From the NCBI GenBank assembly GCA_040905865.1, contig JBBDQU010000023.1, positions 1 to 46,019 on the forward strand: a DNA stretch of 46,019 nucleotides. The letters are read 5' to 3'. Positions 3,680 to 31,467 of this stretch are shown here, piece by piece; within the stretch, counting starts at the first letter, position 1; every line of letters begins with the position of its first letter. The DNA is from Alphaproteobacteria bacterium (GTDB lineage Bacteria; Pseudomonadota; Alphaproteobacteria; UBA8366; GCA-2717185). A program made the translations under genes and the position numbers. The notes under the pieces are model-generated. The model saw nothing but the letters and a program-made list of their open reading frames with translations, was not told the origin of the DNA and made no database searches.

Positions 3680-5785
3680 GTGGTTTATAGTCTCTTCATA
3701 AACATACAGCTATTGAGCTACCTTTCCTGTTTCGGCGCGTTTTTGTTTCTCGCCGTGCTGGTTGGACTCAGCCGCACCGGAGGCGCGCACAAATATCTGT
3801 TGCTGGCCTGCTGCGTCGCTACCGTCATCTGGTCCGGTGTCGTAGTGGCTGTTCCCTGGATCGGCCCCTTTCCCAAAATACTCGCAGCGGCGGAAATTCT
3901 CCGCAACCTGCTATGGCTGACGATGCTCGGCACGCTCCTCGGCATTCGACGGTTTGAGAAAAGCGGTCTCACTGCGCGGCTGGCGGTGATGACGGTGGTC
4001 GGCGTTTCCCTGATCCTGCTCTACGCGGAATCGTTTGCTGAAAAATTCCCCCCGCCACCGTCGATTTTGGCCAACCTGCAGACTATCGTGGGCGGCGGCC
4101 ATGTTTTCCTCGCGGCTATCGGCCTCCTGGCGATTGAAAACCTGTATCGGAACAGCAGCGTGAAGTTGCGCTGGGCGATCAAGTATTTCTGCTTCGGGCT
4201 GGGCACCATCCTGGTTTACGACTTTGTCCTGTATGCGGACGGGGTCCTTTTTGGCCAGCTGGATCAGGAATTCTTCAATGTCCGGGGGTTTGCGAATGCC
4301 ATTATCGTTCCCCTGCTCGCCATTTCGGTATCCCGCGCGGCACTGTGGGATATCGATATCCATATTTCCCGCACCGCCGTTTTCCATACAACGGCGCTGA
4401 TCGGCAGCGGCGTCTATCTGATCGGGATGGCGGGGATCGGGTTCTATGTCCGTGAAATAGGCGGAGAATGGGGACGGGTTGTCCAGAACTTGTTGCTGGC
4501 GACCACGGTTCTGATCCTGATCATCATCTTTTCGTCTGCGGCCATGCGCGCGAAGTTCAAGGTTTGGATCAGCAAGCATTTCTTCAGCTACAAGTATGAT
4601 TACCGCGAAGAATGGCTGCGCTTCATCCGCACCATTACATCGACGGAAGGGCCGGCGGGGCTGCATGAGCGGATCGTCAGGTCGGTCGGCGACATCGTCG
4701 ATTGCAGTTCCGGCGGGCTTTGGGTGTTGCGGGACGGCGATAATGCCTTTCTGCCGACGGTCACAATGCAACTGGGCGATCGTCCGCCCGCGCAATCGCT
4801 CGACAGTCCACTTGTCCGATTTCTCTCGGATACGCACTGGATCGTCGACCTGGAAGAATACCGGCGCAATCCGGCACGGTACGGGGACGTTGAAATACCT
4901 GCCTGGCTGCTGGAAACCCGATCCGTCTGGCTGATCGTTCCCCTGATCTACCGCGATTCGATGCAGGCCTTTCTTGTCCTGGGCCGGCCTCGGGCCAGCC
5001 GCGAGCTGGGTTGGGAAGATTATGACCTGCTGCGAACGGTCGGAAACCAGGCAGCAAGTTATCTCGCGGAAGAACAGGCGATGAATGAATTATCCGATGC
5101 GCGCCGGCTTGACGATTTCAACCGACGCTCGGCTTTTATCATCCATGACATCAAGAACGTTGTCAGCCAGATGTCGCTTTTGGTTCAGAATGCTGAAAAA
5201 TTCGGGGACAATCCGGAATTCCAGAAGGACATGATTGCGACGGTCGGTAATTCCGTTACCCGGATGAAGGATCTGCTTGAACGGTTCAAGACTGTTCAAC
5301 AGCCAATATCCAAAACCATGACGGAAGACGGCCCGGCATCCGATTTGGCCCCCCTGATGAAAATCGTCCACGATGTCGCGGCCAACTGGTGTAAACAGAA
5401 ACCGGATCTGCTCGTCGACTTGCCGGATACAATCGGGCTTCTGGTGGATCATTCGCGGCTGACCTCCGTGCTGGATCATCTGCTCCAAAATGCTATCGAG
5501 GCCGCCGGAGTGAGCGGCTCTGTCGCCCTCCGCCAGCGGGTACATGGCAGGGAAGTATTCATCGAGGTTGAAGACGACGGGCCAGGCATGGATTCTGGCT
5601 ATATCGAGAACAGACTATTCCGGCCGCTCGATAGCCAGAAGTCCTCGGGTTTTGGTTTAGGGGCCTATCAGACCCGACAACTCGTTCGGGAAATGGGCGG
5701 CCGACTGGAAGTAATCAGCGAGGTGGGCCACGGTACCGTTATGCGCGTGGTGTTGCCCCTAAAGGAAGGGTTGGGTGTGGCGTGA
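3680..5785 (+). CDS. prsK: XrtA/PEP-CTERM system sensor histidine kinase PrsK
   Basis: Inner-membrane sensor kinase paired with PrsR. The N-terminal third (about residues 1-290) has eight or so hydrophobic segments. A GAF-like region follows (about 310-460), then a HisKA-type segment with the phosphoacceptor in HDIKN (His489). The ATPase domain has the N-box NAIEAAG, DDGPGMD and GFGLGAYQTRQLVREMGG. Length (701 aa) and layout fit the PrsK family (TIGR02916), which is restricted to exosortase/PEP-CTERM genomes. The GTG start at 3680 has no clear ribosome site. The stop overlaps the prsR start in GTGA, so the two are translationally coupled. The stimulus is unknown. Confidence 0.92.
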   Translation: MVYSLFINIQLLSYLSCFGAFLFLAVLVGLSRTGGAHKYLLLACCVATVIWSGVVVAVPWIGPFPKILAAAEILRNLLWLTMLGTLLGIRRFEKSGLTARLAVMTVVGVSLILLYAESFAEKFPPPPSILANLQTIVGGGHVFLAAIGLLAIENLYRNSSVKLRWAIKYFCFGLGTILVYDFVLYADGVLFGQLDQEFFNVRGFANAIIVPLLAISVSRAALWDIDIHISRTAVFHTTALIGSGVYLIGMAGIGFYVREIGGEWGRVVQNLLLATTVLILIIIFSSAAMRAKFKVWISKHFFSYKYDYREEWLRFIRTITSTEGPAGLHERIVRSVGDIVDCSSGGLWVLRDGDNAFLPTVTMQLGDRPPAQSLDSPLVRFLSDTHWIVDLEEYRRNPARYGDVEIPAWLLETRSVWLIVPLIYRDSMQAFLVLGRPRASRELGWEDYDLLRTVGNQAASYLAEEQAMNELSDARRLDDFNRRSAFIIHDIKNVVSQMSLLVQNAEKFGDNPEFQKDMIATVGNSVTRMKDLLERFKTVQQPISKTMTEDGPASDLAPLMKIVHDVAANWCKQKPDLLVDLPDTIGLLVDHSRLTSVLDHLLQNAIEAAGVSGSVALRQRVHGREVFIEVEDDGPGMDSGYIENRLFRPLDSQKSSGFGLGAYQTRQLVREMGGRLEVISEVGHGTVMRVVLPLKEGLGVA

Positions 5786-7161
5786 CGAAGAATCAGGAAA
5801 ACGGCGTCAAGGCGCCGAGCCTTCTGCTGGTCGAGGACGATCCCGGCCTGCGCAGCCAGCTGCGCTGGGCGCTGGATGACTTTGACGTGCATGTTGCTGA
5901 AGACCGGGTTACGGCGCTGGAACAGCTGCAGGCCGTAAAGCCGAATGTTGTCGTGCTGGATCTTGGACTCCCGCCCGATCCAAACGGGGCGACGGAAGGT
6001 CTGGCGATCCTCGAATCCATATTGTCGGACCGGCCGGAGACAAAGGTGATTGTATCGTCGGGGAACGAGGCGCGGCAAAATGCCGTCGAGGCGGTGCGTC
6101 TTGGCGCGTATGATTTTTACCCGAAACCGGTGGATATGGATATCCTGAAACTGATTATCGACCGGGCGCTGCGCCTGCAGGAGCTTGAACAGGAAAACCG
6201 CCGCCTGAGCACGCAATCAACGGAGTCGCCGTTCGATGAGTTGATTACGTCGAGCCCGAAAATGCTGAAAGTATGCGAAACAATCCGCCGGGTCGCCACG
6301 GCGGATGTACGGGTCATGCTGACGGGGGAAAGCGGCACGGGCAAGGAAGTTCTGGCCCGCGCCCTGCACGCCGCCAGCGAACGGGCGGGCAAGCCCTTTA
6401 TCGCCATAAATTGTGCGGCAATCCCCGAGAACCTTCTGGAAAGTGAACTCTTCGGACACGAAAAAGGGTCGTTCACCGGCGCGGTCAAACAGACCATCGG
6501 AAAAATCGAACAGGCGAATGGCGGAACGCTGCTGCTTGACGAGATCGGCGACATGCCATTGCCATTGCAGGCGAAACTGTTGCGCTTCCTGCAGGAACGG
6601 GTCATTGAACGGATCGGCGGCAGGTCCCAGATTGAACTGGATGTCCGCGTCGTCTCGGCCACGAATCAGGATCTGGAGAGCATGATCAAGACAGGCGAAT
6701 TCCGGGAGGATCTTTATTACCGCCTGGAGGAAGTGGGTGTCCACATTCCTGCCTTGCGGGAACGTGATGGCGATGCTGTGTTGCTTGCGAACTATTTTCT
6801 GCAACAGTTTGGCGGCAATCGGAAAAAATCGTTCCGCGGTTTTACCAAGGATGCGATCGCGGCGATAAGCGCCTATCACTGGCCGGGCAATGTGCGGGAA
6901 CTGGAGAACCGTATAAAGCGGGCCTCGGTTCTTGCGGATGGCAAATATATCGGTTTGGAAGATATCGATATCGACGTGCGCGATTCAGCAAAGGCGGTAC
7001 CGACGCTGCGCGAGGCGCGCGATGCCGCGGAGCATGAGGCTGTCAAGCTGGCGCTTTCACTGGCGCAGGGCAATCTGACGACCGCGGCGAAAGTCCTCAA
7101 TGTGAGCCGTCCGACACTTTATGACCTGATGAAAAACCATGACCTGAAAGTGGAAAACTGA
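5782..7161 (+). CDS. prsR: XrtA/PEP-CTERM sigma-54-dependent response regulator PrsR
   Basis: NtrC-like activator of 459 aa. The receiver domain has acidic residues VEDD near position 18 and the phosphoacceptor Asp60 (VVLDLGLP). The central AAA+ domain has Walker A GESGTGKE, the sigma-54 contact loop GSFTGA (a variant of GAFTGA) and Walker B LLLDEIGDM. A Fis-type helix-turn-helix lies at the C-terminus (NLTTAAKVLNVSRPTLYDLMKNH). This matches the PrsR family (TIGR02915). It is expected to bind dyad enhancers and activate RpoN promoters. The best candidate target in the window is the PEP-CTERM gene promoter at 26685-26700. The GTG start overlaps the prsK stop by 4 bp. Confidence 0.94.
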   Translation: MTKNQENGVKAPSLLLVEDDPGLRSQLRWALDDFDVHVAEDRVTALEQLQAVKPNVVVLDLGLPPDPNGATEGLAILESILSDRPETKVIVSSGNEARQNAVEAVRLGAYDFYPKPVDMDILKLIIDRALRLQELEQENRRLSTQSTESPFDELITSSPKMLKVCETIRRVATADVRVMLTGESGTGKEVLARALHAASERAGKPFIAINCAAIPENLLESELFGHEKGSFTGAVKQTIGKIEQANGGTLLLDEIGDMPLPLQAKLLRFLQERVIERIGGRSQIELDVRVVSATNQDLESMIKTGEFREDLYYRLEEVGVHIPALRERDGDAVLLANYFLQQFGGNRKKSFRGFTKDAIAAISAYHWPGNVRELENRIKRASVLADGKYIGLEDIDIDVRDSAKAVPTLREARDAAEHEAVKLALSLAQGNLTTAAKVLNVSRPTLYDLMKNHDLKVEN

Positions 7162-7210
7162 ATCGGTGCGTGTCGCGAAATGATCGGTGTTGCAACAAAC
7201 GGAAATGATT

Positions 7211-10069
7211 ATGACTGATAGATTTGAGCGCCATCGCCTGTATTCGTCCGGTTCCGGGCCTTCCGGCGCTGTTGCGAAGCGCGGTATTCGGCAGTGGTTA
7301 TCCGTTTTGGCGCTATCCGTCGGACTGTTCCCAATGCCGCATTCCGCGTTATGGGCCGCGGTCAGCGAGGAGTCATCGGAGTATTTCGAGGAAGCCCGCG
7401 GCTATATGGAAAAGGGGGACGTAAAGTCCGCCGTAATTCAGTTGAAGAATGCCATCCTGGCAGACCCCGACAATGTGCGGGCGCGGTACGAACTGGCCAT
7501 CATCTATATCCGTGGCCGCGAAGGACCGTCGGCGGAAAAGGAATTGAAGGCGGCTCTCGATCGCGGCCTGGAAGAAGACAAGATATGGATTGCGCTGGCG
7601 CAGGCCTATAGCCTGCAGGGGAAAAACCGGGAAATCATCGCCGAAATCCTGCCGGACGGCAAAACAGGTGAATTAAAGGCCAACATTCTGGCGGTCCGGG
7701 GCAGCGCCTATGCGGCCCTGAAACAGCTGGATAAAGCGGAAGAGTCTCTGAACCTAGCGGTCAAGGAAGCGCCTGAAGCGGTGCTTGTGCGCATTTCCCT
7801 CGGTCAGGTGCTGCAGGCGCGCGGAAAACTTGACGAAGCGGAAGAGCAGATCGATCGCGCCCTGGCGTTGAATCCGGACAGTTCGATGGCGCTGATCCGC
7901 AAGGGCGGATTGCTGCAGGCCCGGCAGGAATATGACGCCGCGATTGAAGTTTTCAGCAAGGCCGTTGCCCTGAATGAAAACAATATTCCGGCGCACTTGG
8001 CGCGTGCCGGCGCCTATATTGCCAGCAAGGACCTCGCCCGCGCCCGCGAGGATGTCAATCTGGTCCTCGACAAGGCGCCGAACAATCCCATCGGCCAGTA
8101 TCTCGACGCTACACTTCTGGCAGGCGAGAAAAAATACCAGGCGGCGACGGATGCGCTTCAGCCGGTGATGGCGGCGCTGGCCGAGTATCCGCCGGCATTG
8201 TATCTCCAGGCATCGCTTGATCTAGCCCAGGGTCGTATCGAGCAGGCGCAAACGGCTGTCCAGGGGTATCTGGCCAGGGTGCCGGGAAGCTCGCGGGGCC
8301 AGCGCCTTCTCGCGGCCATCTTCCTGCGGAAACAGGATCCGGCCCGTGCAATCGAGATTCTGGAACCGATGAGCCGGGCCAACCCGGATGATGCCCGCCT
8401 GTTGGCGCTGCTGGGTTCGGCCTATGCCGCGGCACGCCGGAACGCCGAGGCCACGACAGTCTTCGAAAGAATCGTCGAACTTCAGCCGGATGATTCCACG
8501 ACCCGGGCGCGGCTGGCGCTGAGCCGCCTGAACAGCGGCGACAGCGATGCGGCGGTCAGGGATTTCGAATCAATCGTGGAAGGCGATCCGGACGAAACAC
8601 GGGCCAGTCTGTTGCTGGTGCTGACTCATCTGCGGCAGAGAGAATTCGACAAGGCGCTGTCGGCCGCGACTGTATTGAAGGAGCGCATGCCTGACAGTCC
8701 GATTCCGGAGAATTTTCTGGGCACGATCTACATCTATAAAAAGGATGTGCCAAACGCACGCCGGCATTTCGAGCAGGCGCTGGCAATCCAGCCGGAGTTT
8801 TCGCCGGCGGCTATGAACCTGGCGGCGCTGGAACGCAGCAATGGCGATATCGAATCGGCTAAAGCGCGTTACGAGAAAATCCTGACCACCGACACGAAAA
8901 ACATCCAGGCGATGATGCGTCTGTCGCAAATCGCCTTTTCCGAAAACGACAACGCAAAGGGAATCGATTGGCTGGAAAAAGCCATTGAGGCGAATCCGAA
9001 TGCCGCGCAACCAAGAGTGGCGTTGGTCAATGCCTATCTGCGTCAGAAGGAAGGGCAGCGTGCGTTGAGCGCGGCCCGGGAACTGGTCCAGATTGACGGC
9101 AAGAACGTCGATGCGCTCGATGCGCTGGCGCAGGCGCAATTCGATGCCGGCCAGATCCCGAATGCGGTCGCGACCTACCGGCAACTGGTCAGCCTTGCGC
9201 CGAATTCTCCGCTCGCCCAATTCCGGTTTGGCAGGTTGCTCGCCGCGTCGGAGGAGCTTGGCGATGCCATATCCGCATTTGAGAAAGCAATAGCGCTAAA
9301 TCCGGCTTACCACGAGGCGCGCCAGGAGCTTATTGGCGTCATTCTGCGGAAAAATGGGCCGGATGCGGCGCTGGGCCGCACGCGGGAAATGATCCGGGAA
9401 AATCCGGATGCCGGCTTTGGCCATGCCCTGGAGGGAAGTGTCCTGGCCCGGAAAGGCGATTTCGCTGCGGCGAGTGAAGCCTACAAGAAGGCGCAGGTGC
9501 GGGAACCCTCCGGCCAGATATTGTCTCGGCTGTATCAAAACCTGTCCCGTGCCGGGAAGGGCGCCGAAGGGCGCCAGCTCCTGCAGGAATGGCTTGCCAG
9601 GAATCCGGATGATTCGACCATTCGCTTTGTCTATGCGAGCGCGTTGATTCAGAACAATGATTATCCGGGCGCTATCCGGGAAAATGAAACGCTGCTGAAA
9701 GCGTTTCCGGAAAACGCCGTACTCCTGAATGACCTGGCATGGCTTTATGGCGAAACGTCGGATCCTCGCGCATTGGAATATGCCAGAAGGGCGCAAAAGC
9801 TCGCGCCCAAGTCGCCGGCAGTTGCCGATACGCTGGGCTGGCTTCTCGTCGGCAAGGGCGATGTGGAAGAGGGACTCAGATACCTCAAGGAAGCGAATGA
9901 AATGGCGCCGAACCAGCTGGAAATCGGGTATCACTATGCGGCGGCACTGGCGCAATCGAGCAAGAATACGGATGCGTTGAAACTGCTCAAGGATATCCTC
10001 GATACCGGAAAACAGTTCGCCAGCATCGAAGACGCACGTGCCCTTTATGTAAAACTGGTCGGAAAATAA
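7211..10069 (+). CDS. prsT: XrtA/PEP-CTERM system TPR-repeat protein PrsT (non-lipoprotein form)
   Basis: A long protein (about 950 aa) made almost wholly of tetratricopeptide repeats, for example AKKYQAATDAL, DKALSAATVLKER and NPDDARLLALLGSAYAAARR. It belongs to the PrsT family (TIGR02917-like). The start is placed at ATG 7211 because GGAA lies 6 nt upstream; the frame is open to GTG 7187 and ATG 7205. The N-terminus has a type I signal peptide (hydrophobic core WLSVLALSVGLFPM, cleavage near SALWA) and no lipobox, unlike the second copy at 28422-31283. It sits 49 bp after prsR and 61 bp before galE, so it is probably co-transcribed. Likely a periplasmic or outer-membrane scaffold for polymer or PEP-CTERM protein export; that role is inferred. 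Confidence 0.88.
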   Translation: MTDRFERHRLYSSGSGPSGAVAKRGIRQWLSVLALSVGLFPMPHSALWAAVSEESSEYFEEARGYMEKGDVKSAVIQLKNAILADPDNVRARYELAIIYIRGREGPSAEKELKAALDRGLEEDKIWIALAQAYSLQGKNREIIAEILPDGKTGELKANILAVRGSAYAALKQLDKAEESLNLAVKEAPEAVLVRISLGQVLQARGKLDEAEEQIDRALALNPDSSMALIRKGGLLQARQEYDAAIEVFSKAVALNENNIPAHLARAGAYIASKDLARAREDVNLVLDKAPNNPIGQYLDATLLAGEKKYQAATDALQPVMAALAEYPPALYLQASLDLAQGRIEQAQTAVQGYLARVPGSSRGQRLLAAIFLRKQDPARAIEILEPMSRANPDDARLLALLGSAYAAARRNAEATTVFERIVELQPDDSTTRARLALSRLNSGDSDAAVRDFESIVEGDPDETRASLLLVLTHLRQREFDKALSAATVLKERMPDSPIPENFLGTIYIYKKDVPNARRHFEQALAIQPEFSPAAMNLAALERSNGDIESAKARYEKILTTDTKNIQAMMRLSQIAFSENDNAKGIDWLEKAIEANPNAAQPRVALVNAYLRQKEGQRALSAARELVQIDGKNVDALDALAQAQFDAGQIPNAVATYRQLVSLAPNSPLAQFRFGRLLAASEELGDAISAFEKAIALNPAYHEARQELIGVILRKNGPDAALGRTREMIRENPDAGFGHALEGSVLARKGDFAAASEAYKKAQVREPSGQILSRLYQNLSRAGKGAEGRQLLQEWLARNPDDSTIRFVYASALIQNNDYPGAIRENETLLKAFPENAVLLNDLAWLYGETSDPRALEYARRAQKLAPKSPAVADTLGWLLVGKGDVEEGLRYLKEANEMAPNQLEIGYHYAAALAQSSKNTDALKLLKDILDTGKQFASIEDARALYVKLVGK

Positions 10070-22870: not shown

Positions 22871-22942
22871 TTGTCGGATGCGGGCGATGTTCCCGGGCGT
22901 GGGACATGGCGCCGGTCAGGACGCAGCAAGGATGAACGCGAC

Positions 22943-24460
22943 GTGCCAAGGAACGGATTAGCGGCGGCTTTGCCGTCCGGGCCGCTGACCGCGGGCCGGG
23001 TGTCTGCCGCTGCGGCAATACTGGGCGTGATGGCGTTGATCGCCATCTATTCCGAAACCGCAGCATCGATGCTGGATCTGTGGTCCCGGATGCATGCCTT
23101 CGACCATGCCTTCCTGATACTTCCGGTCTGCGGTTACCTGATCTGGGAGCGACGCCGCGTTCTGGCGGGAATCGGCCCATCGCCCAGCATCGTCGGGGCG
23201 ATACTGCTGGCGGGATTCGGCATCATGTGGATCGCGGCTGACGCAGTTGATGTCGCCGTCGGGCGGCAGGCGGCGTTGATCGGCATGGTTGAAAGCCTCG
23301 TTCTGACCGTCGTGGGCTGGCGGATGTTCCGGGCAATGCTGTTCCCGATGCTGTTTTTGTGGCTGGTTCTTCCGACTGACCTGAACCTGTTGCCGCCGTT
23401 GCAGCGTTTGGCGACCATCGTGTCATCGCAGACCATCGCCATGATGGGGATCCCGGTCTTTGTCGAGGACGTGTTTATCGAATTGCCCGCGGCGCGGTTC
23501 TGGGTCGCGCCGGGCTGCGCCGGCCTGAATTTCCTGCTGTCCGGTCTGGCCCTGTCCATTCTCTATGCGGAACAGATGTACACCAGCTGGACCAAGCGCA
23601 TTCTCTGCGTGGCGGTCGCCATTATCGTCGCGCTGATCGCCAACTGGCTCCGGATTATCGCCATTATCCTGGCGTCATTCTATCTGGACGGGGTTTACGA
23701 CATTAACGACCATTACATGGAAGGATGGCTGTTCTTCGCGGCAATCATGTTCCTGTTGATGTGGCTGGGCTGGCGCTTTCGGGACCCCGCGCCTGTCGCT
23801 GTCCGGCAGACCGGCGCATCCGGGCCGCGCGGCGGTCGCGCCGGAATTGTCGTGGCGGTGGCCGGCGCGGTTGCCATCGCAGGATTGTTCCCGGCTTATT
23901 CGGCCTATCGTCAGAGCGATCTTCCGCCGGTGCCGCCGACGCGAATCGCCATTCCTGAAACCGTCGGCGCGTGGCGGCTTGTACCGGACGATCCGTCCTG
24001 GCGGCCGAACTTCGCGGACGCCGATGCGCAGGCGACCGCCCAATACAGCAACGGGACCGAACAGGTGTCGCTGTTCGTGGCCTATTACGCCTATCAGGGA
24101 GAAGGACGGGAGGTCGCCAGCTATGCCAACAAGGTGCATGACGACAACACGTGGTTCTGGCTGCGCACCGGCAAAACGGAGGCAGTCATCGGCGATACCC
24201 GGACCACCATGACGACGACTGCCCTGAAATCAGGCGATCTTCGCCGCAATGTCTGGCATACGTACTGGCTCGACGGGCGCTACATGAACAGCCCGGTCAT
24301 GGCAAAACTGGCGCAGGCAAAGACGGACCTGCTGTTCGGCGACCGCCGCGCCGGCTTCCTGGCCGTGTCGGCGGATGAAGATACGGACCCGGAAAACCTG
24401 CGCGCCTTCCTGGCCGCCCTGCCGCCGTTTCCGACGCTTTCGGCGCCGGTTGCCCGATGA
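22943..24460 (+). CDS. xrtA: exosortase A fused to an EpsI domain
   Basis: Multi-spanning transpeptidase-like protein that processes PEP-CTERM proteins at the inner membrane. The catalytic set is visible: Cys192 in VAPGCAGLNFL, Arg237 in NWLRIIAII and His257 in NDHYMEGWLFF. About eight hydrophobic segments end near residue 290. The C-terminal 200 residues are a periplasmic EpsI/DUF3485 domain (ETVGAWRL, VASYANKVHDDNTWFW, NVWHTYWLDGRY). I chose GTG 22943 because AAGGA (22928-22932) precedes it; the frame is open to TTG 22871, directly after the previous stop. With the substrate gene, the amidotransferase and EpsB it forms the core of the system. Confidence 0.94.
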   Translation: MPRNGLAAALPSGPLTAGRVSAAAAILGVMALIAIYSETAASMLDLWSRMHAFDHAFLILPVCGYLIWERRRVLAGIGPSPSIVGAILLAGFGIMWIAADAVDVAVGRQAALIGMVESLVLTVVGWRMFRAMLFPMLFLWLVLPTDLNLLPPLQRLATIVSSQTIAMMGIPVFVEDVFIELPAARFWVAPGCAGLNFLLSGLALSILYAEQMYTSWTKRILCVAVAIIVALIANWLRIIAIILASFYLDGVYDINDHYMEGWLFFAAIMFLLMWLGWRFRDPAPVAVRQTGASGPRGGRAGIVVAVAGAVAIAGLFPAYSAYRQSDLPPVPPTRIAIPETVGAWRLVPDDPSWRPNFADADAQATAQYSNGTEQVSLFVAYYAYQGEGREVASYANKVHDDNTWFWLRTGKTEAVIGDTRTTMTTTALKSGDLRRNVWHTYWLDGRYMNSPVMAKLAQAKTDLLFGDRRAGFLAVSADEDTDPENLRAFLAALPPFPTLSAPVAR

Positions 24461-26492: not shown

Positions 26493-26509
26493 TGTCGGAA
26501 TTCTTTACA
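26493..26509 (+). promoter_or_regulatory. upstream dyad 1, probable PrsR enhancer site
   Basis: TGTCGGAATTCTTTACA is an imperfect palindrome centred on GAATTC. It recurs with one base difference at 26605-26621. It lies about 210 bp before the predicted RNA start of the PEP-CTERM gene, a normal distance for an RpoN activator. A related element GGAAAATTCT follows at 26524-26533. Assignment to PrsR is inferred. Confidence 0.6.
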
Positions 26510-26604
26510 AAATCCGCGAATCAGGAAAATTCTTTCATAATATACTGTTATTGTTGAAAAAAATCTAACCACAGGATTGCGGCAGCGGATTTGGGCCAAA
26601 ATAC

Positions 26605-26621
26605 TGTCGGAATTTTTTACA
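26605..26621 (+). promoter_or_regulatory. upstream dyad 2, probable PrsR enhancer site
   Basis: TGTCGGAATTTTTTACA matches dyad 1 at 16 of 17 positions and lies 112 bp downstream of it, about 98 bp ahead of the predicted RNA start. It is also followed by GGAAAATTCT (26644-26653), so the region is an ordered strong-weak, strong-weak array. The whole stretch 26455-26680 is much more AT-rich than its flanks and carries no gene. Confidence 0.6.
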
Positions 26622-26684
26622 ATGCCCTGTATTTCGGATTCATGGAAAATTCTAACACATTGAAACATAACCAAAAATATTAGT

Positions 26685-26700
26685 TGGCACGGTTCATGCT
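26685..26700 (+). promoter_or_regulatory. sigma-54 (RpoN) promoter of the PEP-CTERM gene
   Basis: TGGCACGGTTCATGCT matches the -24/-12 consensus TGGCACG-N4-TTGCW with one mismatch, and GG and GC are at the correct spacing. RNA would start near 26711. AAGGAG (26746-26751) and the ATG at 26760 follow. The nearby sigma-54 activator PrsR and the dyads upstream support the call. Confidence 0.75.
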
Positions 26701-26759
26701 TATAATGGCTGCAAGGGACCAACGGATTCAGTTGAACAGTTACTCAAGGAGACGACAAT

Positions 26760-27707
26760 ATGAAACACTTCAAGACAGGAAAGCTCCTCGCGGCGGCCAC
26801 GGTCGGCGCGATGATGCTGACAGGGGTTGCCGCGCAGGCCCAGGGCGTTATTACCTGGGACCCGGGCAACCCAGCCAGCGGTAATCCAGATGGCGCAGGT
26901 ACGGACTTTGATGGCACTGCCGTCAAAACAGACCGTATCGATATGGTTGCCGTCAATGACAACCTATCTACGCAAGGAACATGTATATCCGGTAACTTCA
27001 GCTGCTGGAATCTGAACTTCGTCGATGGCAACGGCAATTTTACGGAATCGTTCACTTTCCTGGCCCTTACCTCAACGTTGAACGGCGATCCATTAGCGGC
27101 CCGTCGATTCGGTAGCGCCAGTATGAATGACAATTTGGCAATCGGCCCGTATACGGAGTCCTACGTATCGGTACAGGTCTCCCTGACCGGCTCCCTGGTC
27201 GGTGGCGCAGCGACCATGACGGCGCTGGCGGCTGCCACTACCCCCACGCAGATCGCTGACCTGCTCGACCTTACGTACAACACGGGCACGTTTGCGTATT
27301 CGTTCCATGAAGACCTTGACGTGACGGGCACCACCGTTGCGATCGGTACGTTCGATCTTATATCCGGTGAATCTGACGTCGGTAATTCCGATGCGCGCAT
27401 TGAGCTGGGTTGGGATACGGCCGCCGCCTTCGATCTGTCGCCGGAATGGACCGATGCCAACGGCAATCCGTTCAATCCGTTTGACACACTTCTGAACGAC
27501 ATCACCCAGGGTGTCGAGATTATGGAGAAGGTGGGCTTCACGGCTGCCGGTGGCGGGATTGCAATCCGGAGCCGCGGCGCGGAAGTCGGCTTCAGCCAGT
27601 TTCCGGCTGTTCCGGAACCGGGCGCCTTGGCCCTGTTCGGTGTCGGTCTGATCGGTCTGGGCGCCCTCGCCCGCCGTCGGGCGCTCAAGGGAGCGGCTCA
27701 GGCGTAA
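26760..27707 (+). CDS. PEP-CTERM sorting-domain protein (probable exosortase substrate)
   Basis: A 315-aa exported protein. A signal peptide ends near residue 28 (AAQAQG). The body is rich in Asn, Gly, Thr and Asp with few charged helices and two closely spaced cysteines (CISGNFSC). The C-terminus is a canonical sorting signal: VPEPGALALFGVGLIGLGALARRR, that is PEP, a hydrophobic helix and a basic tail. XrtA should process it near the PEP motif. Its place after the amidotransferase gene and its RpoN promoter recall the flocculation-type PEP-CTERM proteins of Zoogloea-like bacteria, but I cannot confirm that subfamily by eye. The ribosome site AAGGAG is 8 nt from ATG. Confidence 0.93.
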   Translation: MKHFKTGKLLAAATVGAMMLTGVAAQAQGVITWDPGNPASGNPDGAGTDFDGTAVKTDRIDMVAVNDNLSTQGTCISGNFSCWNLNFVDGNGNFTESFTFLALTSTLNGDPLAARRFGSASMNDNLAIGPYTESYVSVQVSLTGSLVGGAATMTALAAATTPTQIADLLDLTYNTGTFAYSFHEDLDVTGTTVAIGTFDLISGESDVGNSDARIELGWDTAAAFDLSPEWTDANGNPFNPFDTLLNDITQGVEIMEKVGFTAAGGGIAIRSRGAEVGFSQFPAVPEPGALALFGVGLIGLGALARRRALKGAAQA

Positions 27708-28421: not shown

Positions 28422-31283
28422 CTATAGTTTAAGCTCCCGCAGCACACTCTTTGCTTCCACCAATTCTTCATCGTTGCTGTTCTCGCCAATGAATTTCGTC
28501 AGCAATTCGACGGCTTTCCCCGTGTCGCCGCTCTTTGCATAAGCCCTGGAAAGAAGGACATGGACTTCCTCGTTATCCGGGAGCCGTTTCGCCAGAGAGC
28601 GCATGATCAATACAACGCGGTCGTTATCGCGCCCTTCTGAAAACAGGATGTTGGCAAGTGTGAGAAGCACCGGGGGCGTTGACGGCGCCAGTTCAACAGC
28701 GCGCTCCGCGTATACAAGCGCCCTTTCCGGATTATCTGCCACCAGCAGGGAAGCCAGATTGTTCAGCATGATCCAATTATTCGGAAAACGGTCTACCAGC
28801 GACTCGTAATGTTCTCTCGCTTTGGCCCTTTCACCCTGAATCGTAAAATAGTTTGCAAGTTCCAGTCTTGCCCGGTCATCCATTGGGTGCCCTTCAACCC
28901 ACGCCTCCAGTTCCCTGACCGCGAGGTCTTGCTCCCCCGACTCCCAGCGGGCCGATGCGAGCTGTATCGCTGCCGACTCATCCATCGCCCGGGAATCGAT
29001 GCCGGCGAGAATCGTGCTCGCCCGTTTCGGATCCTCTTCCCGCCGGGCCATCCAGGCTTCCAGCTTCGCTAGCGCTATGTTATCCGGATCTCGTTCCTTC
29101 AGCGTCAGGAGTTGCTGTTTCGCTTCTTCGGTCCGGTTAGAAATTGTGAGGGCGTGAATCCGGGCAGTGGCCGCCAGCCCGAACTGAGGGTCAAGTTCAA
29201 GGGCCCGGTCCAGTGCCGCCAACATTCTCGGGCCATTGTTTAGCTGTCCATAGGCCTGCGCCAGAAAATAATGGGCTCTCGGATTGGCCGGTTGGATCTG
29301 CGTCAGGCGCTCTAATGTCCTAACTGCTTCGCCCGGCTTTTGCGCATCGATAGCGGCCCGGCCCAGTATGAGCAGCATTTCCGGATGATCCGGGTTCTCG
29401 CGTGAGACATCGTTCAATAGGGCAATTGCCCGTATCGGTTCGCCGCGCTCGACCAGCGATTGTGCGGCCAGTACCCTTGGCTCCACAGCTCGGGGGTTGG
29501 CATCCATCGCAGTTCTGAGCAAGGACTCGGCTTCTTCAGGCTTTCCCTGGTATTGCGCCAGCGCAATGTAGCGCATCAACGTCAGCAAGTGACCGGGCCG
29601 CTGTTCGAGAATCCGGTCGTAAACGGCCCTTGTTGCTGTGAAATCCTGCGTGATCAAATGGATATCCGCGATCGTGTATGCGGCTCCGATATGCGTCGGT
29701 GCGATCTTCAACGCTTCCTCCAACGCACCGATGGCTTCAGTCCATTCCTGCTTGCCTTTATGCGCAAGCCCGATGCCAATCCACGGGTTAGGGCTGTCCG
29801 GGTCGGCCGTCCGGAGTTCGTTGGCGACTTTCAGCGCTTTGTCAAATTCACTCCTCCGCAGATGAAGCTGCATCAGTGTGTATTTTCCCTTGAGAAAGCC
29901 GGGCGATTCTTTCGTCGCTTTTTCGAGTTCCTCGAGTGCCTCATCGCTCCGTCCTGTCGCAAATTTCACCCGTGCGAGGCGAAGGCGCGTTTCCGGATCA
30001 TCGGGATTAATATCAACCGCCTTCTGGAAATAATTATCGGCAAGAAACAGATCCCCACTGGCCGTTGCAGCTGAGGCAACCATCGTCAAAAGCTGAATAT
30101 CGTCGGGCGACTGCTCGGAGAGCGCCTTGAACGTTGAAAGTGCTTCATCCGGTTTTAACAAACGCATCTGCGCTATACCGAGCAACCGCCGGACATTCCT
30201 GCTTTCCGGCGCCTCCGTTAAATAGCGTTGCAGGCTGTAATTGGCTTGCTCGTAGTTTCCGAGACCGAAATTCGCCATGCCAACGATCATATGGGCCTGA
30301 ATACTGTTCGGTTGGTTCTTGAATATCCGTTCACCCGCTTCCTTCGCTGCCGCAAAATTTTCTTTCTGCAGTTCAGCCAGACCCAGGTAATAGTTCGCGG
30401 GGATATAGTCCGGGTAGTGCTCCCTGACTGCATTCAGATTGGCAATTGCCTTGTCGTAGTCGTTCAGTGCTATTTGGGCTCTGGCAATACCAAGTTGCAG
30501 TTCCAGGTCGGATTTTCGGTTCGCAAACGCGGCTTGAAATGCTTCCTCTGATTCTTTGAAGTTCTTTTGCCGGAATGCGAGTTCTCCCTTCGCCGCCTGT
30601 ACGGAATAGTGGTCCGGAGAGAGCGAAGCGGCGCGATCCATCCTTGCTTTTGCTTCCTCCCAATCCCCTCTAAATATCGATACGTTTGCCAGGCCAACGA
30701 TTGCCTCCAGGAATTCCGGCGCATTTGTGTGTTTCAAATGCGGGCGTTCCTTGTCGATATCCGTTTTGTATGCCGATGCGGCTTTCTGATATGCCGCTTC
30801 GGCTTCGTCGAGGTTTCGTTGTTCCAGAAATGCGTGGCCTCGTAGAACTGCCGTGTTACTGACTTCGCTTGCGGACATGCCATCAGATATCTGATGGTTT
30901 TGCAGAAGTGTCGAATAGTCTCCACGCAAAAGAAGGCTTCGCCCAATCAGGAACTTCGTCTCAACCTTATTCGCGCCCAGGCTCTGTGCGGTCTTGAGTT
31001 CTTTTTCGGCGGATTCCGCATCGCCGATGTCGAGGTAGATTCTGCCGAGCATCAACCGCGCTTCGACATTGTCCGGGTCCTTCTGCAGGATCGTTTTCAG
31101 GTCGATGCTACCAGCTCGCAGGTCGCCGGATTCGATGGATTGTTCGACGCGCGCCAACAGGTCGTCCACGTTCTCCACGGAGGATTCATCGCAGCCGAAC
31201 AGGATCAGGGCCGAAAGGAGCACCGCGCCAGACCGGAATAGTGCGGGGCGGGCCCTGGATGCGTGACGGCGGATATCGTTCAT
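28422..31283 (-). CDS. prsT: XrtA/PEP-CTERM system TPR-repeat lipoprotein (second PrsT paralogue)
   Basis: About 953 aa of tandem tetratricopeptide repeats. After the signal peptide comes the lipobox LFGC (Cys31), then DES, so this copy is lipidated; Asp at +2 would favour inner-membrane retention under the enterobacterial rule. It is the better match to the TIGR02917 lipoprotein family. The start is set at ATG 31283 (GGAAG 8 nt upstream, correct signal-peptide length); the frame is open to ATG 31322. It converges on the PEP-CTERM gene. It differs clearly from the first copy at 7211-10069 and is not a recent duplicate. Probable role: scaffold in PEP-CTERM protein or polymer export (inferred). 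Confidence 0.9.
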   Translation of the reverse strand: MNDIRRHASRARPALFRSGAVLLSALILFGCDESSVENVDDLLARVEQSIESGDLRAGSIDLKTILQKDPDNVEARLMLGRIYLDIGDAESAEKELKTAQSLGANKVETKFLIGRSLLLRGDYSTLLQNHQISDGMSASEVSNTAVLRGHAFLEQRNLDEAEAAYQKAASAYKTDIDKERPHLKHTNAPEFLEAIVGLANVSIFRGDWEEAKARMDRAASLSPDHYSVQAAKGELAFRQKNFKESEEAFQAAFANRKSDLELQLGIARAQIALNDYDKAIANLNAVREHYPDYIPANYYLGLAELQKENFAAAKEAGERIFKNQPNSIQAHMIVGMANFGLGNYEQANYSLQRYLTEAPESRNVRRLLGIAQMRLLKPDEALSTFKALSEQSPDDIQLLTMVASAATASGDLFLADNYFQKAVDINPDDPETRLRLARVKFATGRSDEALEELEKATKESPGFLKGKYTLMQLHLRRSEFDKALKVANELRTADPDSPNPWIGIGLAHKGKQEWTEAIGALEEALKIAPTHIGAAYTIADIHLITQDFTATRAVYDRILEQRPGHLLTLMRYIALAQYQGKPEEAESLLRTAMDANPRAVEPRVLAAQSLVERGEPIRAIALLNDVSRENPDHPEMLLILGRAAIDAQKPGEAVRTLERLTQIQPANPRAHYFLAQAYGQLNNGPRMLAALDRALELDPQFGLAATARIHALTISNRTEEAKQQLLTLKERDPDNIALAKLEAWMARREEDPKRASTILAGIDSRAMDESAAIQLASARWESGEQDLAVRELEAWVEGHPMDDRARLELANYFTIQGERAKAREHYESLVDRFPNNWIMLNNLASLLVADNPERALVYAERAVELAPSTPPVLLTLANILFSEGRDNDRVVLIMRSLAKRLPDNEEVHVLLSRAYAKSGDTGKAVELLTKFIGENSNDEELVEAKSVLRELKL

Positions 31284-31467
31284 GTCGGTAACTTCCACAT
31301 TCTGAATTTGGGACAATTTCATAAATTAACGCGACCGGATAAAATTCGTTCGGTCGGGATTCGGTAAAACACTATTGCGGCCGGGAGTTTACCATATCCT
31401 GGTTCCGGGTGCGACGGTAACAAGCATTCGGCGCGAAAATCGTGCCGTTCCGGTTAATATTACTGTC

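Follow-up and report, generated by a model that had tools for sequence, protein, structure and literature searches.

A candidate PrsR-dependent sigma-54 promoter upstream of a PEP-CTERM gene and the spacing rules of its relatives

The stretch of 46,019 nucleotides analyzed here (the window) corresponds to contig C23 in a genome of 4.37 Mb. It carries a region that is very probably a sigma-54 promoter belonging to the XrtA/PrsK-PrsR PEP-CTERM regulon, where PrsR would sit on two upstream boxes, IHF would bend the DNA, and contact with the polymerase would follow. From the comparison of this region with related promoters, we lean toward the view that a rigid, directional PrsR-IHF-sigma-54 assembly is common to PEP-CTERM promoters in several phyla, in which the IHF site would be locked to the promoter, the asymmetric box would move by whole helical turns and would hardly ever be flipped, auxiliary boxes would lie on the same face, and the spacings would record an in vivo repeat of about 11 bp. 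If true, this assembly contrasts with textbook enhancers, which work at any distance and orientation. The core of the observation, namely, the box with its sigma-54 site and the link to PrsR, was already published in 2006 and is a rediscovery; what we add is the promoter grammar, which is sharper and testable.

A box pair and a sigma-54 promoter upstream of a PEP-CTERM gene

The PEP-CTERM gene (positions 26760 to 27707, plus strand) encodes a protein of 315 aa that scores over the cut-off of TIGR02595, contains PF07589, and resembles PepA (NF033554, E value of 3.9e-13, under the PepA cut-off). Upstream of it on the same strand, we found a distal PrsR (PEP-CTERM) box, TGTCGGAATTCTTTACA (26493 to 26509), a proximal one, TGTCGGAATTTTTTACA (26605 to 26621), and a near-consensus -24/-12 promoter, TGGCACGGTTCATGC (26685 to 26699), with 63 nt between the end of the proximal box and TGGC. 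The two 17-bp boxes, 112 bp apart from start to start, and the promoter are present exactly as the first-pass annotation of this DNA had claimed, and they stand far above chance. With up to three mismatches allowed, the box occurs twice in the window versus 0.05 times expected, and 26 times in the whole genome versus twice for a reversed control pattern. Given a transcription start near 26711, the box centers fall at about -210 and -98, again as claimed, and the sequence supports the proposed reading of a sigma-54 promoter preceded by enhancers of the PrsR type.

In 2006, in the part of their paper that we drew on, Haft et al. reported a 17-nt motif, the PEP-CTERM box, that ends in TTTACA and is sometimes repeated. 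A -24/-12 motif follows it at a mean distance of 62.8 nt (SD, 10.6; range, 32 to 92) (PMC1569441). This motif pair lay 5' of 99 of the 167 proteobacterial PEP-CTERM genes and matches the PrsR/PrsK/PrsT profile, and PrsR was proposed to bind the box (PMC1569441). The boxes of the window correspond to their motif 1, being 17 nt long, ending in TTTACA, and located 5' of a PEP-CTERM gene. The sequence TGGCACGGTTCATGC fits GG-N10-GC with TGGC...TGC, and its distance of 63 nt from the box equals the published mean and lies within the 32- to 92-nt range of the -24(GG)/-12(GC) motif. What differs is that the consulted part of their paper gives a mean and SD, with neither helical clusters nor an IHF site (PMC1569441). 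The first-pass annotation had overlooked this publication, as well as the IHF-like site, the helical phasing, and the directionality treated below.

The surrounding island has the gene content of a PrsK-PrsR system. On the plus strand, it encodes the sensor kinase PrsK (3680 to 5785; TIGR02916, 672.9 bits for a cut-off of 300), the sigma-54 activator PrsR (5782 to 7161; TIGR02915, 671 bits for a cut-off of 502.6), the TPR protein PrsT (7187 to 10069; TIGR02917, 736.9 bits), and exosortase A (XrtA) with an EpsI domain (22871 to 24460; TIGR03109, 241.4 bits for a cut-off of 208). Exopolysaccharide genes lie in the island as well. The annotated presence of PrsK and PrsR in one island is thus borne out by scores above the curated cut-offs for both. 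According to Pfam and to the sequence itself, PrsR is composed of a receiver domain, an AAA+ domain with a GSFTGA loop, and a Fis-type helix-turn-helix. Besides PrsK, PrsR, and PrsT, the genome encodes RpoN and, over the cut-off, IHF-alpha. We also noted that the island holds two PrsT paralogues, both over the cut-off, one adjoining prsR (7187 to 10069) and the other past the PEP-CTERM gene on the opposite strand (28422 to 31322, 572.2 bits).

The box-promoter unit in the rest of the genome

The first-pass annotation had suggested the box as a search pattern for the regulon, and it proved to be a good one. A box and a sigma-54 promoter lie 5' of 6/7 convincing PEP-CTERM genes, on contigs C22, C23, C48 (two genes), C51, and C56, a count that leaves out a doubtful TIGR02595 match on C60; the refuting condition set in the first-pass annotation, absence of the box at other PEP-CTERM genes, thus did not refute the claim. 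The C60 candidate was set aside, with a TIGR02595 score at the cut-off and an overlap with a longer transporter-like open reading frame (ORF). No PrsR box was found by a search at the PEP-CTERM gene of contig C44 (23317 to 25275, 652 aa), which is probably under other control.

At all eight direct-orientation promoters of the genome, the gap from box to TGGC is 62, 63, or 64 nt; the minus-strand promoter of C48 starts with GGGC, and its gap was read by hand. When one extra N was inserted into the promoter part of the search pattern as a control, matches dropped to chance level. A second box is present 101 to 121 bp further upstream at seven of the eight promoters, compared with about a fifth to a quarter (33/148) in the wider sample.

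Boxes are spaced by helical turns

We collected 225 promoters after removal of identical sequences, 122 of them (set A) from a scan of named GTDB genomes (alpha-, beta-, and gammaproteobacteria, Desulfuromonadaceae, Nitrospirae, and others) and 103 (set B) from a separate genome collection that included the present genome; the two sets may share species, and the promoters in them are related and so are not independent. The core of the pattern, TGTCG-N6-TTTACA, had to match exactly, with one G more in the scan for set A, and the scans covered gaps of 48 to 78 nt, as well as 79 to 109 nt in 36 genomes.

The gaps between box and promoter clustered at 51.5, 63.0, and 74.4 nt in set A, and the same was seen in set B. 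The ten trough positions (55 to 59 and 67 to 71) held 3 of the 213 gap values between 48 and 78 nt, and with one value per locus there were still no trough values. Periodic concentration in set A reached 0.79, more than in any of 2,000 draws from uniform and one-peaked null models (maximum, 0.37). The search for longer gaps in 36 genomes yielded a further cluster at 81 to 86 (about 84) nt, and the step between clusters amounts to 11.4 bp from three peaks and 11.0 bp from four. This gap rule is stricter than the published mean of 62.8 nt with its SD of 10.6 nt, and it extends over 225 promoters, drawn from other phyla as well as from several classes of proteobacteria. A helical repeat of 11.1 to 11.6 bp in vivo was fitted from lac repressor looping in wild-type cells (PMC1762422), and the gap clusters are as expected for boxes that lie on one helical face, given an in vivo repeat near 11 bp.

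Upstream of the proximal box, we counted 51 boxes in the same direction, versus fewer than 1 expected by chance, and 11 in the other direction. Distances to these distal boxes were phased at 11.0 bp in set A, with the same phase in set B (0 of 4,000 draws of a jitter null in A; P = 0.036 in B), and the distal box of the window has the helical phase seen in other genomes. A phase at 10.5 bp was discarded, being absent in set A, where that at 11.0 bp is clear.

An IHF-like site is fixed relative to the promoter

The consensus for IHF binding is WATCAANNNNTTR. Between the proximal box and the promoter of the window, at positions 26653 to 26665 on the minus strand, lies a putative IHF site, TAACACATTGAAA, which matches 8 of the 9 letters in the reverse orientation of WATCAANNNNTTR and is located 32 bp before TGGC. 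Spacers anchored at TGGC likewise show YAANNNNTTGAWW, in the same reverse orientation, at about -32. Between -34 and -30, set A has 36 sites and set B has 38 that match 8 or more of the 9 letters, versus 0.8 expected and a maximum of 4 in 200 dinucleotide shuffles. Their distance from the promoter is near constant (medians of -31, -32, and -33 in the three spacing classes), and their distance from the box start varies by class (38, 48, or 59 nt). Sites in the opposite orientation gather at -21 to -17 (14 in A and 9 in B versus 0.8). We infer from the match that IHF would bind at 26653 to 26665. Because many promoters are without a consensus at -34 to -30 (about two-thirds at 8/9 letters, about 45 percent at 7/9), IHF may be optional, or it may be replaced by intrinsic bends.

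The geometry of these promoters might be explained otherwise. The spacing clusters could reflect common descent from a few ancestral promoters instead of selection for helical phase, as the dominance of the 63-nt class and the several promoters contributed by some genera might suggest. We regard this as very unlikely, since single genomes (G124, G368, and G470) contain several spacing classes, spacers share no sequence beyond the IHF-like site and AT-rich stretches, and the clusters recur in records from alpha-, beta-, and gammaproteobacteria, Desulfuromonadaceae, and Nitrospirae; the trough is also empty at one value per locus, and phasing extends to the second boxes, which lie at 80 to 279 bp. 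Less easily dismissed, although still improbable in our view, is that the element at -32 is an AT-rich contact or an intrinsic bend tied to the sigma-54 holoenzyme. The region is AT-rich, and the distance is fixed to the promoter and not to the box, as such an element would require; against this, the conserved letters YAANNNNTTGAWW are those of the IHF consensus, and we estimate that the opposite-orientation sites at -21 to -17 would place a bend at nearly the same spot.

The box is directional

The boxes had been annotated as dyads, which holds for the outer TGT...ACA pairs, symmetric throughout; the remaining symmetry is weak, and the box is used almost only one way. In a count where box positions 1 to 5 and 12 to 17 are fixed by the search pattern, positions 4 and 5 were never symmetric and position 6 was symmetric in 13 percent. 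A symmetric enhancer usable both ways would be about as frequent inverted as direct, whereas the inverted pattern of the proximal box had 0 matches in the 36 genomes that have the direct pattern. The box is therefore directional, with a symmetry limited to TGT...ACA.

An exception occurs in the present genome. The PEP-CTERM gene of contig C51 has a variant promoter, CGGC...TGC, and two inverted boxes (95879 to 96044), one of them 81 nt before the promoter and the other past it, close to the start of the gene. We rejected the idea that these boxes serve the minus strand, as no convincing gene was found on it.

Link with PrsR and proposed mechanism

Among the 36 genomes that have the box-promoter pattern, 33 encode PrsR (TIGR02915 over the cut-off); among 26 sampled genomes that lack the pattern, 2 do. 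Four further genomes had a lone match that was judged to be due to chance, and three of them lack PrsR while one has it. In genome G300 (contig C1, 2335817 to 2336872), the PrsR match spans 352 of 445 positions and contains one in-frame TAG, and three box-promoters are kept; this prsR is possibly broken, or the assembly may be in error.

We propose a mechanism built on the statistics for the box, the promoter, helical phasing, the fixed IHF-like site, directionality, and co-occurrence with PrsR; it predicts that PrsR and IHF bind, that PrsK phosphorylates PrsR, and that the distal box plays a part. PrsR, presumably phosphorylated by PrsK, would use its C-terminal Fis-type helix-turn-helix to occupy the proximal box. 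IHF on 26653 to 26665 would bend the DNA, and the AAA+ ring of PrsR would reach the RNA polymerase-sigma-54 waiting at 26685 to 26699 and open the promoter. A second PrsR dimer would sit on the distal box, which faces the same side of the helix, and would make oligomer assembly likelier. Against this model stand the C44 PEP-CTERM gene without a box, the inverted boxes of C51, and the failure of plasmid-borne prsK-prsR to bring flocs back in one mutant of Aquincola tertiaricarbonis (PMC9850573).

Many genomes encode several sigma-54 activators, the DNA target of PrsR is still the one predicted computationally in 2006, and our literature search found no paper demonstrating that PrsR binds it, so that another NtrC-family activator might bind the box. 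This is highly doubtful in light of the co-occurrence of PrsR with box-promoters (33/36 versus 2/26), the agreeing phylogenetic profile in the consulted part of Haft et al. (PMC1569441), and the location of prsR within the same island. We give still less credence to the ordered array of four sites put forward in the first-pass annotation, in which the 17-bp dyads would be strong and GGAAAATTCT elements weak PrsR sites bound cooperatively. Each box is indeed followed by an exact GGAAAATTCT (26524 to 26533 and 26644 to 26653, plus strand), and two other boxes in the genome have a GGAAAA-type word after them. Yet the copies do not exceed chance, their offsets from the box differ (31 versus 39 nt), and the last base of the second is the first base of the conserved IHF-like site. 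Best matches to GGAAAATTCT in 151 related promoter spacers were no better than in shuffled spacers, and at 13 other boxes of the genome they were marginally nearer than in shuffles (mean of 4.0 versus 4.3 mismatches). According to these two comparisons, GGAAAATTCT is not a conserved element, and the strong-weak pairing is not supported.

Relation to known systems

The nifH promoter is an IHF-assisted sigma-54 promoter. At the orp promoters of Desulfovibrio, an activator, IHF, and a sigma-54 promoter also act together, according to the part of the study used here (PMC3897727). The material consulted on orp and nifH differs from our case in that it yielded no rule of a fixed IHF-promoter distance combined with whole-turn steps to the activator box. 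In the LuxO-sigma-54 qrr system of Vibrio, lengths from activator to promoter cluster at steps of about 11 bp in natural promoters (PMC4740811), and the principle of step-like spacing of a sigma-54 activator is therefore not new. As far as the consulted part of that study goes, the qrr system differs by its activator, its longer loops (about 80 to 120 bp), its restriction to one genus, and the lack of a fixed IHF site (PMC4740811).

An experimental parallel is pepA of A. tertiaricarbonis, which is RpoN dependent and has a -24/-12 promoter, TGGCAC/CTGCTT, identified by primer extension (PMC9850573). Both cases have a PEP-CTERM gene, a -24/-12 promoter, a predicted upstream enhancer, and prsK-prsR in the genome; the pepA promoter was mapped and tested for its dependence on RpoN (PMC9850573), whereas ours is known from its sequence. 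A full-text search for PEP-CTERM together with integration host factor returned no relevant paper, and in the literature searched we did not find the fixed IHF site, the direction rule, or their breadth across PEP-CTERM promoters described. With the strict geometry, the regulon can be searched for by a much sharper pattern, and a role for IHF is predicted. The result is also relevant to how activated-sludge bacteria form flocs and biofilms, a setting in which PEP-CTERM genes are important.

Box-promoter units without a following PEP-CTERM gene

A box and a sigma-54 promoter are also found on contigs C10, C66, and C85 of the genome, with no PEP-CTERM gene following. On C10 (27569 to 27800), a box pair and a promoter with the usual 63-nt gap have no convincing protein gene downstream, and roughly 100 nt past the promoter lies a strong GC hairpin followed by TTTTC (fold z-score of -2.2); this unit may belong to a small RNA under PrsR control or to a gene that has decayed. 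On C66 (59551 to 60621), a box pair and a promoter precede a 197-aa PAS_5-domain protein, whose ORF begins some 270 nt past the promoter and which is a possible non-PEP-CTERM target of PrsR. On C85 (45802 to 46300), a box pair and a promoter stand before a membrane-type ORF of 51 aa without a family, which is followed by an MFS transporter.
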